A stretch of DNA of 64,000 nt from Cuniculiplasma divulgatum (GTDB taxonomy: Archaea > Thermoplasmatota > Thermoplasmata > Thermoplasmatales > Thermoplasmataceae): positions 1,450,877 to 1,514,876 of the forward strand of contig CP133595.1 of assembly GCA_031200235.1 (NCBI GenBank). Direction: 5' to 3'. The notes under the pieces are model-generated. The model had not been told where the DNA came from. It searched no databases and saw nothing but the letters and a program-made list of their open reading frames with translations. The position numbers and the translations under genes are program-made. The stretch's first letter is position 1, and each line of letters starts with the position of its first letter. Shown piece by piece: positions 2,192-7,677 of this stretch.

Positions 2192-3106
2192 ATGGAAGAA
2201 AATTTTCTGGCCTTTTTCGGTCATCTCAACATAGATGTTGTTATGCGCGTTCCATCGCTGCCATGCAGGGGATCGGTTAATATCCAGCGTCATGAGGAAA
2301 ACTACGGTGGTACCGCCGGAAATTTCTCAGTCGTTGCATCTTCTCTGGGAGTACCCTTCCATCTTTATTCTGCCGTATCCCGGAACTCACATGGTAAGTT
2401 CCTGGAGTTCCTGGATTCAAGGGATATAGATACTGAACACATTTACATATCCGGGGATTACGGCCCAATTTGTTATTCTGCCACGGACGGCAAAGATCAG
2501 GTCTATTATATTTACCAGGGTCCCATGGATGAGCCGTTCTCCAAAGCTGTTCTCAAAGAAGATTCAGAGTACAGGTGGATTCACCTTGGTACCGGTCCGC
2601 AGGACGATTATATTAACGTTGCAGAAAATATAAAGGGAAAGAAGGTTTTTGATCCAGGCCAGGAAATATCCTACAGATATTCACGGGATGACATAATCCG
2701 GATGGCTTCAGCCAGCAGTCTTTGGATTTTAAATGAACACGAGCTTTCTGTTGCGTCAAAAATTCTGGGCTTACCTGAGGAGCAGGTAATTGGTATGACG
2801 CCGGAGACCATTGTCACCAGAGGCGCAAGTGGGTCAACGCTGTATGGATCCAACGGCAGGACGGAAATAAAGTCAAGGAAATCCGAAGTTGTGTTTGACA
2901 CAATCGGTGCAGGAGACGCCTACAGGGCTGGCTTCTACCTTGGCATTTACAGGGGATTGGACATGGCCCACAGCTGCGCAGTGGGCTCAATAGTTTCCGG
3001 ACTGGCTGTACAGAAACCACTGCGGGAATTCAATTATACTGCATCTGATATTTTTGATATATTCCAATCAGAGGCTGAGGACCTGATCATTCCACAAAAA
3101 GATTAA
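2192..3106 (+). CDS. PfkB-family carbohydrate/nucleoside kinase
   Basis: Cytosolic kinase of the ribokinase (PfkB) superfamily, transferring phosphate from ATP to a sugar or nucleoside hydroxyl. The N-terminal signature GHLNIDVV (about 11-18) and the GGTAGNFS substrate-site motif (about 39-46) are present. The C-terminal anion-hole and catalytic-base motif is DTIGAGDAYRAGF, with the conserved Asp in GAGDA. At 304 aa it is a typical length. Substrate cannot be read from the sequence: ribokinase, nucleoside kinase and KDG kinase are all possible. It is followed 21 bp later by a gamma-CA-like gene and then enolase, which would fit a sugar-metabolism transcript but does not prove it. Confidence 0.85.
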   Translation: MEENFLAFFGHLNIDVVMRVPSLPCRGSVNIQRHEENYGGTAGNFSVVASSLGVPFHLYSAVSRNSHGKFLEFLDSRDIDTEHIYISGDYGPICYSATDGKDQVYYIYQGPMDEPFSKAVLKEDSEYRWIHLGTGPQDDYINVAENIKGKKVFDPGQEISYRYSRDDIIRMASASSLWILNEHELSVASKILGLPEEQVIGMTPETIVTRGASGSTLYGSNGRTEIKSRKSEVVFDTIGAGDAYRAGFYLGIYRGLDMAHSCAVGSIVSGLAVQKPLREFNYTASDIFDIFQSEAEDLIIPQKD

Positions 3107-4908: not shown

Positions 4909-5673
4909 ATGATACATATTCTCGGGATTGGCCTGCGGGGTGTTGACAGTGTAACCCTTGGGGAAATGAGAATCCTGTCAAAATGTGAGAGGATATATTT
5001 TGAGACATACACGTCAGTCTCTCCGGCGGAAGTAGTCAGCGAGATATCATCAATCACCAGCAAACATATTTTTCCACTGGGCCGGGAAGATATGGAGAAT
5101 CCGGCTGAACTTTTGATGGAAGCCAGAGATCATGATGTCTGTATCATTGTAACTGGTGATCCTCTCTCGGCCACAACACATAACCAGCTGCGCCTCGATG
5201 CCATTTCAGCTGGCGTTGCGGTGAACGTGGTTGAAAATGCCTCAATCCTGACAGCACTGCCAGGAAAGGTGGGTCTTCTCCCCTACAGGATGGGGCCCCC
5301 TGTTTCACTTCCATTTCTGACGGAAAGATTCAGTCCAAGGAGCGTGCTGGATAAGCTGGGGAGAAACAGGCAGATGGGCTTTCACACCATAATTCTTCTT
5401 GATCTCAAGGATAACCGCACAATGTACCCTGAAGAGGCTTTCAGCTACCTGAAACAACTTGAAGAAAGGCACGGTATCGGCGTTGTTAAGAATGATTCCA
5501 CGTTTGTGGTCGCTTCCAGGGTGAGTCAGGCTGGAGAAAACCTTTCATACGGCACCTTTGAAAAGTTATCAAAAATAAGCTGGAAAACAAGCCCTTCCTC
5601 CCTGATTTTCCCGGCAGATCTGACCGAGAAAGAATCGGAATTTATGGGCCTTTTCTGCACTAAGTTAGAGTGA
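4909..5673 (+). CDS. dphB: Diphthine synthase (SAM-dependent methyltransferase DphB)
   Basis: Methylates the 3-amino-3-carboxypropyl-histidine intermediate on elongation factor 2 during diphthamide synthesis. The protein opens with MIHILGIGLRGVDSVTLGE, the tetrapyrrole-methylase-fold start typical of DphB. It carries the TGDPLSATTH motif around residue 82 and the NASI/TALPGKVGL/YRMGPPVS region shared by archaeal and eukaryotic Dph5. At 254 aa it has the normal length. It starts one base after the enolase stop. It ends 6 bp from the end of the convergent regulator gene. Confidence 0.93.
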   Translation: MIHILGIGLRGVDSVTLGEMRILSKCERIYFETYTSVSPAEVVSEISSITSKHIFPLGREDMENPAELLMEARDHDVCIIVTGDPLSATTHNQLRLDAISAGVAVNVVENASILTALPGKVGLLPYRMGPPVSLPFLTERFSPRSVLDKLGRNRQMGFHTIILLDLKDNRTMYPEEAFSYLKQLEERHGIGVVKNDSTFVVASRVSQAGENLSYGTFEKLSKISWKTSPSSLIFPADLTEKESEFMGLFCTKLE

Positions 5674-5679
5674 GTGTGC

Positions 5680-6288
5680 CTATCTGAAATATGTTTCCAC
5701 AATCTGCATAACAAGGTTGAGTGGCAAATTCAGTTTCCGGCTAACATATTCCGGATCCATACTGTCCACATAATATATGAGAACCAGCCTGGAGGTGGGA
5801 TCGGGCACCATTGTTGATATGTATGAGTTTATCTTTCCCATGAGATGGTCCTTTATTGCAATGAGCTTATTTCTGTCTCTCATGAGTTCGTCAATCTGGT
5901 GGTCCACATCACCTATCTTCTTCAGAAGTTCTGATGGTTTTTCTATGTGAATATTCTCCCGTTCTTCCATACTGTTGGGCTCAAGTGGGATTTCATATCT
6001 TTTGACCGTTATAAAATTGCGGGAATAATCCGCCACAAGGGTGGAGAATCCCGTGGGCCTGTAAATTTTTCTCCTGGCGCCGAGATTGCTGGGCGCATAC
6101 CCTGCAGATGAAATCAGGTTTGCCTTCTCCAGCAGATCCAGCTGTTTATTGATGGCCTGCTGTGAAACACCTATGATCCTGCTGATCTGCAGGGCATAAG
6201 ACTGATCGATGATGAGGCTCCTCAGTATTTCTCTGCGGGTTGAGTTCTCTATTGCACTTATGAAAGCCTCAAGGTCATCGTCAATCAT
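5680..6288 (-). CDS. Winged-helix (ArsR-like) transcriptional regulator, hsp20 operon
   Basis: Predicted DNA-binding regulator. The N-terminal 90 residues form a winged helix: NSTRREILRSL, then a helix-turn-helix around IGVSQQAINKQLDLLEKANL, then a wing with GARRKIYR. A coiled-coil-like helical segment follows (about 115-150, KKIGDVDHQIDELMRDRNKL), probably for dimerisation. The C-terminus is another helical domain. The ATG is 6 bp after the hsp20 stop on the same strand, so it is very likely transcribed with hsp20. A perfect inverted repeat at the hsp20 promoter is the obvious candidate operator, which would make this an autoregulated heat-shock repressor analogous to Phr of Pyrococcus. That role is inference; the HTH fold is visible. 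Confidence 0.82.
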   Translation of the reverse strand: MIDDDLEAFISAIENSTRREILRSLIIDQSYALQISRIIGVSQQAINKQLDLLEKANLISSAGYAPSNLGARRKIYRPTGFSTLVADYSRNFITVKRYEIPLEPNSMEERENIHIEKPSELLKKIGDVDHQIDELMRDRNKLIAIKDHLMGKINSYISTMVPDPTSRLVLIYYVDSMDPEYVSRKLNLPLNLVMQIVETYFR

Positions 6289-6294
6289 TTCCCA

Positions 6295-6858
6295 TCACTC
6301 TATCTGGATCTTCTTTCCGCTGGTCTTGTCACCGTCAACTTTGTCAATTGTCAGATCAAGTATTCCGTTGGTGAACTTTGCCTTTGCAGTTTCCGGCTTG
6401 ATATCGTACTCAAAGTCCATGCTCTTGTAGTACTTCCTTGGTCCGTTGCGCACATTTATGGTGACATTCCTTTCAGAGACATTCAGCTCGATGTCCTCCT
6501 TGGATATGCCTGGAAGCTCATAGGTGAGGTATACCTTGTTCTTGTCCTCGTTGAAATCAGTCATTGGTTCCCTGACATCCTTTTCAACAGCCTCTGAAGC
6601 CCCAGGTATCATGTTTCTGGGCACATTGCCGAATTCCTCGAATACCGGCTTACCGTCTGGGCCAATTTTGTAGGAGAAACCATACACGTATGGTCCGTAG
6701 GTTTTAACATCCGGATCCTTGAGGAACCTGTCCCATATCCTCATCAGCCTGTCATTGAATCTGTCAAAGTCGAAGCCAAAGTCCCGGAACATGTCATCAA
6801 ATTCTTCGTCCCAGGGGGTTCTCCAGTCGTCTTCATCCCTCTTTCTTCTTATTGCCAT
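6295..6858 (-). CDS. hsp20: Hsp20/alpha-crystallin small heat shock protein
   Basis: ATP-independent holdase chaperone that prevents aggregation of unfolding proteins. The N-terminal region (1-90) is rich in Asp, Arg and Phe and predicted disordered. The alpha-crystallin domain spans about 95-187: YLTYELPGISKEDIELNVSERNVTINV, then KSMDFEYDIKP and AKFTNGILDLTI, with the GILDL signature. It is terminated by a KKIQIE tail resembling an oligomerisation I-x-I motif. Start ATG at 6858 is preceded by an excellent SD (GGAGGAT). A TATA-like box and perfect inverted repeat sit just upstream. The regulator gene follows at 6 bp. Confidence 0.95.
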   Translation of the reverse strand: MAIRRKRDEDDWRTPWDEEFDDMFRDFGFDFDRFNDRLMRIWDRFLKDPDVKTYGPYVYGFSYKIGPDGKPVFEEFGNVPRNMIPGASEAVEKDVREPMTDFNEDKNKVYLTYELPGISKEDIELNVSERNVTINVRNGPRKYYKSMDFEYDIKPETAKAKFTNGILDLTIDKVDGDKTSGKKIQIE

Positions 6859-6870
6859 ATTTTATCCTCC

Positions 6871-6895
6871 TGTTGTCAACCATTAGTTGACAACA
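6871..6895. promoter_or_regulatory. Perfect 10-bp inverted repeat, candidate hsp20 operator
   Basis: Arms TGTTGTCAAC and GTTGACAACA are separated by the 5-nt spacer CATTA. On the minus strand the repeat lies between the TATA-like box (about 6911-6919) and the SD (about 6863-6869), overlapping the expected transcription start. That is the position from which a repressor would block polymerase loading. The regulator is unproven. Confidence 0.75.
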
Positions 6896-6909
6896 ACAGA
6901 TTACAATTT

Positions 6910-6920
6910 AGTATAAAAAT
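6910..6920 (-). promoter_or_regulatory. TATA-like box of hsp20
   Basis: Minus-strand ATTTTTATAC is about 55 nt before the hsp20 ATG, and a start site about 25 nt downstream falls within the inverted repeat at 6871-6895. Confidence 0.5.
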
Positions 6921-7227
6921 ATTATGTAGACAGTCAATTTTACCTTGCAAGAGCATTAATGCCGGAGAAGATTACTTCCTGCATGCCTAATCCCACGTGC
7001 AGTTCACGAGTGGTGTACCAGATGCGGTTCAGAAAATTCTCAGCTTCTGTTTCTCTTGGGGGCTAATTCTTACGGGCCGGTATGCTGTTTTCCAATCAAT
7101 GATGCTGTCCTGATTCTGACATTTTCAGAGAAAACAAGATTTCAGTACAAATGGAAAAAAGAGAAAGGCGGAATGTGTATACGTTCCAAACGTCTTATAA
7201 TCAAGCAAATGGTACGTATTTGATAAC

Positions 7228-7677
7228 ATGAAGTGGATAACAAGGGAGAAGGCCGCAATAGATAGAATAGCCTGCCCATGGCTGATTTCCAGATTTATAG
7301 ACGACAATCCTGAGTTCATCTTTGTGCCGGCGGGTGAAGTTATGAAAGATTCCAGAGAACTTTCAGCAATTCCATTTGATGTGGAGGGGGCGGAACTCAA
7401 TCACTACCATGAGGATGGCGAGGAGAGAGTGACATTTGACGCTGTTATGAGAAAATACAAACTGTCTGATCCTGCTCTTAAGGAACTTGCAAAGATCGTC
7501 AGGGCAGCTGATGCTCACGAAGCTATGGCAGTACCAGAATCGCCGGGTCTGAAATCCATCGCACAGGGTTTTAGGTTGATATCGAAGAATGATCATGAAA
7601 ACATGGATAAGCAATTTCCCGTCTATGACGCACTCTACGCTTATTGCAAGTATAAGCTAGAATCACGTAGAAAATGA
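7228..7677 (+). CDS. ChrB-domain protein (chromate-resistance associated)
   Basis: Protein matching the C-terminal domain of ChrB, a sensor/accessory protein of chromate resistance systems in bacteria. Visible family motifs are KWITREKAAIDRIACPWLI at the N-terminus, FVPAGEV, IPFDVEGAELNHY, a KYKLSDPAL-x6-IVRAADAHE segment, and the terminal FPVYDALYAYCKYK. At 149 aa it corresponds to the single C-terminal domain without the N-terminal HTH-like half. No chrA transporter is nearby. A TATA-like CTTATAAT (about 7194-7201) precedes the ATG, and an imperfect palindrome (7170-7187) lies just upstream. Role in this organism is unknown; metal or redox stress is a guess. Confidence 0.8.
   Translation: MKWITREKAAIDRIACPWLISRFIDDNPEFIFVPAGEVMKDSRELSAIPFDVEGAELNHYHEDGEERVTFDAVMRKYKLSDPALKELAKIVRAADAHEAMAVPESPGLKSIAQGFRLISKNDHENMDKQFPVYDALYAYCKYKLESRRK

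Follow-up and report, generated by a model that had tools for sequence, protein, structure and literature searches.

In the window (the whole 64-kb stretch of DNA analysed here), an hsp20 gene lies on the minus strand at 6295..6858, with its ATG at 6858-6856. The gene encodes a small heat-shock protein of 187 aa, which scores 168 bits against the NCBIfam archaeal Hsp20 equivalog (cut-off 140). A second gene on the same strand (5680..6288) begins 6 nt after the hsp20 stop, and encodes a 202-aa winged-helix regulator of the ArsR/HTH_20 type (with HTH_20 and HTH_5 domains), the proposed repressor of this report. As the next gene, a member of the tetrapyrrole-methylase family (4909-5673), is convergent, hsp20 and the regulator gene form a two-gene operon. 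An earlier, sequence-only reading of this DNA had claimed a co-encoded regulator in a Thermoplasmatales-type archaeon. Both claims were correct, since an ArsR-type regulator does follow hsp20 at this short distance and the window organism does belong to that group.

The inverted repeat and promoter layout upstream of hsp20

We observed two 10-bp arms of perfect complementarity, at 6871-6880 (TGTTGTCAAC) and 6886-6895 (GTTGACAACA), separated by a spacer of 5 nt (6881-6885). Read along the minus strand from 6895 to 6871, the order is TGTTGTCAAC-TAATG-GTTGACAACA, followed by AGGAGG and then by the hsp20 ATG. This stretch (6871..6895, minus strand) is the predicted operator, and its conserved core is the 23-mer GTTGTCAAC-TAATG-GTTGACAAC (6872-6894, minus strand), as defined by sequence and conservation. 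The TATA box TTTTTATA (6912..6919, minus strand) is found 25 nt upstream of the core, with an A-rich BRE immediately upstream of it, and the hsp20 Shine-Dalgarno AGGAGG (6866..6871, minus strand) abuts the operator on the other side. The perfect repeat with its 5-nt spacer (6871-6895), as well as its placement between a TATA-like box (6919-6912) and the Shine-Dalgarno (6871-6866), had already been described in the sequence-only reading, and both descriptions were confirmed.

Archaeal transcription starts lie at a usual distance from the TATA box, and from this spacing and the TATA position the hsp20 start is predicted at 6887..6892 (minus strand), within the first half-site. The repeat would therefore be an operator that overlaps initiation. 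Taken alone, the bare repeat is not significant and is no rarer than chance: when perfect repeats with arms of >=10 and spacers of 0-10 were counted in the 64-kb window, one was observed against 0.53 expected from Markov simulations. Since about 0.5 such repeats are expected per 64 kb, the weight of this one comes from its position and its conservation.

Another inverted repeat was seen at 7179-7219 (ATACGTTCCA / TGGTACGTAT, 9/10 paired, 21 nt apart). It is located directly upstream of a ChrB_C-domain gene (7228-7677), and could be that gene's own operator.

Conservation of the gene pair and the site, and extent of the regulon

The regulator was present in 57/61 related genomes, with hsp20 directly before its gene. 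A scan of 84,980 species genomes yielded 65 Thermoplasmata loci, including those of Ferroplasma acidarmanus Fer1, Acidiplasma aeolicum, Thermoplasma sp., Cuniculiplasma, E-plasma and DHVE2 archaea. We observed hsp20 immediately before the regulator gene in all of the Thermoplasmata loci whose contig extends far enough (63/63), and the pairing was also seen in families f2-f5 of the order (f5 being the family whose regulators resemble the regulators of the DHVE2 loci). The operator itself was counted in 62 loci, i.e. 61 with readable upstream DNA and the window. If the repeat is an operator, it should be conserved upstream of orthologous hsp20 genes, and this was indeed the case, as the dyad GTTGWCAAC-N5-GTTGWCAAC (0-4 mismatches) was found just before the hsp20 Shine-Dalgarno in 62/62 readable loci. 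In promoter stretches without the site, the best match had 6-9 mismatches. In 44 of the 62 loci, the distance from the operator up to the start of the TATA 8-mer is exactly 25 nt.

We also evaluated the genome of the window organism (a single contig of 2,006,340 bases) for further sites. With <=3 mismatches allowed, the 23-mer occurred in it only once (the reversed control gave 0), and relaxed operator patterns gave 19 matches in the genome against 25 in the reversed control, which is no excess. The thermosome and the proteasome had been named in the sequence-only reading as genes at which to look for the arms; with no second convincing site in the genome, their control by this operator is left unsupported. 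Judged from these searches, the regulon of the window organism is probably this one operon only. The same genome also has a second Hsp20-family gene (~621000-621293; L073 / L161), which is under the archaeal Hsp20 cut-off, and the genome-wide scan found no operator at this gene.

When related families were examined, four f5 genomes proved to have this site directly before the gene of a VAT/Cdc48-type AAA ATPase, and in two f4 genomes (L179, L180) VAT/Cdc48 was preceded by near-consensus copies. The VAT leader regions of 10/10 Thermoplasmataceae genomes, including that of the window, had no site (best matches 7-9 mismatches), and the Thermoplasmataceae regulon thus seems to have been reduced to one operon. 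Several f5 genomes carry two full-length VAT/Cdc48 paralogues (L172-L178, L186, L187); the operator is carried by the first-type paralogue in four f5 genomes and is absent from the two second-type promoters examined (L186, L187). Two sites with two mismatches, L155 (G010) and L156 (G020), were rejected as chance-like, having no obvious heat-shock gene adjoining, and the locus L042 (G049) was judged by sequence alone. At a Nezhaarchaeota locus (L147, ~2916-3001), the hsp20 promoter contains an exact CTAAC-N5-GTTAG, identical to the published HSR1 site; the hsp20 and ArsR-type regulator genes are divergent at this locus. Looser variants such as GTTACTAAC-N5-GTGACTAAC were seen in archaea outside Thermoplasmatota (L143, L151, L152). 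Together with the L147 site, these variants suggest a wider archaeal motif family.

The regulator and the reading of the palindrome

The closest solved protein to the regulator in a single-sequence search was 2p4w, the heat shock regulator of P. furiosus (E=1.8e-4). The same structure was the best PDB match of the regulator family profile (E=1.9e-17), followed by SurR. A winged helix, a long helix (118-160) and a C-terminal helical bundle make up the AlphaFold model (mean pLDDT 89.8), whose top fold match was again 2p4w (E=1.4e-8). The profile and fold matches thus identify the protein as a ~200-aa ArsR-type winged-helix homologue of Phr, as expected of the Phr/HSR1-type archaeal heat-shock regulators (arCOG01684). 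Against the Phr equivalog (NCBIfam NF053602) the regulator scored 24.4 bits, below the cut-off of 320, and against the SurR family it scored 29.9 bits, below the cut-off of 250; as the SurR score is even slightly above the Phr score (~30 vs ~24 bits), the signal specificity is unreadable from the family. The 202-aa translation contains no cysteine, and therefore has neither a SurR-like CxxC redox switch nor a typical thiol metal site. By these sequence comparisons, the regulator is a distant member of the Phr/HSR1 group, and not a Phr equivalog. Most f5 homologues lack the C-terminal helical bundle (~residues 160-202), matching the regulator no further than residue ~150-158.

Within the dyad, AAC-N5-GTT is invariant (62/62 loci), while the central base pair of the halves is T..A in 32 loci, A..T in 29 and A..A in 1. 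This pair has changed at least 4 times on the regulator tree, and its covariation score was 0.192, compared with 0.086 for shuffled data (0/500 shuffles reached it, and every slid register was lower). Symmetric covariation of the central bases is not what tandem 9-mers would give, and it marks the site as a true dyad with two-fold symmetry, the form that a homodimer would need. Each half-site by itself is almost a palindrome, and the halves follow each other at a distance of 14 bp, features that would also fit a direct repeat of the 9-mer GTTGWCAAC, with each copy a palindrome in its own right and occupied by its own dimer. However, the central W would then be expected to vary independently or alike in the two halves, whereas it is mirror-symmetric in 61/62 loci, and we rejected this arrangement on that symmetry as extremely improbable. 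The symmetric T..A to A..T swaps are compatible with RNA pairing too, and the palindrome may be thought to work in the mRNA, as a hairpin upstream of the Shine-Dalgarno (e.g. an RNA thermometer or a stability element). If the whole repeat is transcribed, it folds to a stable hairpin (-13.6 kcal/mol, z -4.9), and pair 4, with wobble pairs in 8 rows vs non-standard pairs in 6 rows, mildly favours RNA. However, the stem is lost from RNAs that begin at the predicted start, within the first half-site (-3.8 or -1.9 kcal/mol, not more stable than shuffled sequences), and since such transcripts cannot form the full hairpin, a role in RNA is disfavoured by the predicted start site. The inner half-site letters are moreover invariant, a constraint beyond what pairing by itself would impose, the outer pairs are frequently broken (GG in 22/62 loci), the register relative to the TATA box is fixed, and the Shine-Dalgarno would stay exposed beside the hairpin. 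We consider an RNA element to be very improbable.

The palindrome is, in our view, very probably the operator through which a heat-shock repressor of the Phr/HSR1 type, the product of the operon's second gene, controls its own operon. The sequence-only reading had claimed an operator of a heat-shock circuit, and this finds support in the 62/62 conservation of the site and in the co-encoded ArsR-type regulator; binding by the regulator, repression, the dimer geometry and heat as the signal are inferred. A homodimer of the winged-helix regulator would bind both half-sites across the start, downstream of the TATA box and BRE, and at normal temperature the bound regulator would block RNA polymerase recruitment. 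Phr, from a site that spans the start, keeps the polymerase from being recruited. In the unstressed cell both hsp20 and the regulator's own gene would be repressed, while heat stress would lift the repression and lead to Hsp20 and, later, to more repressor, which would turn the operon off again. HSR1 has been proposed to leave the DNA at high temperature (PMC9133787). By analogy with Phr and HSR1, it is most likely that the regulator represses hsp20 and itself in unstressed cells and is inactivated by heat. The same autoregulatory operator might serve a signal other than heat (redox, acid, metal or general protein damage), as the likeness of the regulator to SurR, a redox regulator, is about as strong as that to Phr, and the Thermoplasmataceae regulon is seemingly limited to hsp20 and the regulator. 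We find this unlikely, however, given that the window regulator is without any cysteine, that the targets (Hsp20, joined by VAT/Cdc48 in related families) are the classic Phr/HSR1 pair, and that Phr is the best fold match.

Histone-free context and comparison with known systems

Only two transcription factors of the archaeal heat-shock response, Phr and HSR1, are listed in a review of 2022 (PMC9133787). According to PMC5852551, most euryarchaea have a member of the regulator family. Histone-lacking thermophilic archaea have been proposed to use chromatin changes for heat shock, unlike Euryarchaeota with Phr-type factors (PMC10653856). In Thermoplasma acidophilum, HTa serves as a histone analogue (PMC6877293). 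Among the 37 genomes that we tested, histones were found in none (0/37) and an HU-type protein in 36. A conserved hsp20 operator circuit in this histone-free lineage is therefore likely to be an exception to the proposal. We lean somewhat towards the view that histone-free Thermoplasmata keep a sequence-specific heat-shock repressor circuit, and that an ancestral regulon (hsp20-regulator and VAT/Cdc48) has shrunk to a single self-regulated operon in the Thermoplasmataceae. If true, this would contradict the proposal that chromatin changes take the place of a Phr-type factor in histone-lacking thermophilic archaea in general (PMC10653856). Our literature search turned up no earlier description of this operator for the Thermoplasmatales. 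Were binding confirmed, such a circuit would exist in a histone-free lineage and could be tested there with Ferroplasma or Thermoplasma cultures, and a binding motif would be defined for the whole order.

The published HSR1 site of Archaeoglobus fulgidus (Rohlin et al. 2005) is CTAAC-N5-GTTAG, as quoted in PMC9133787, and Hsp20 and the AAA ATPase CDC48 are published HSR1/Phr targets (PMC10653856; PMC5852551). The system described here resembles HSR1 in having a regulator that shares an operon with hsp20 and is autoregulatory (proposed, in our case), in the 5-nt spacer and the inner AAC-N5-GTT (CTAAC-N5-GTTAG for HSR1, TCAAC-N5-GTTGA here), and in the further target CDC48, which is matched in families f4 and f5. 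It differs in the half-site letters, as the window does not have the exact CTAAC / GTTAG and the dyad is longer (9 bp per half), and in the gene order, as hsp20 comes first here but is downstream of HSR1 in Archaeoglobus (PMC9133787). The AAA ATPase, moreover, is without the operator in the window's family.

With Phr of Pyrococcus furiosus (2p4w), the regulator shares the fold, the length of 202 aa and an ArsR-type winged helix with a long C-terminal helix, and the two systems are alike in an operator overlapping the transcription start (a predicted start, here) and in the hsp20 target. However, the identity is ~20%, the regulator fails the Phr equivalog cut-off, and the sequence described for the Phr site is a different one, with the blocks TTTA / TGGTAA / AAAA spread over 29 bp. 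The sequence-only reading had drawn a parallel with Phr; the site is nearer to that of HSR1 than to the three-block Phr site. SurR of Pyrococcus furiosus (PF0095; PDB 2qlz/2quf) has a related fold and a similar sequence score, but it is a redox regulator of sulfur metabolism, whereas the window protein has no cysteine and is encoded beside hsp20. If the operator reading is true, the Thermoplasmata would carry the same kind of self-regulated heat-shock switch as Archaeoglobus and Pyrococcus.
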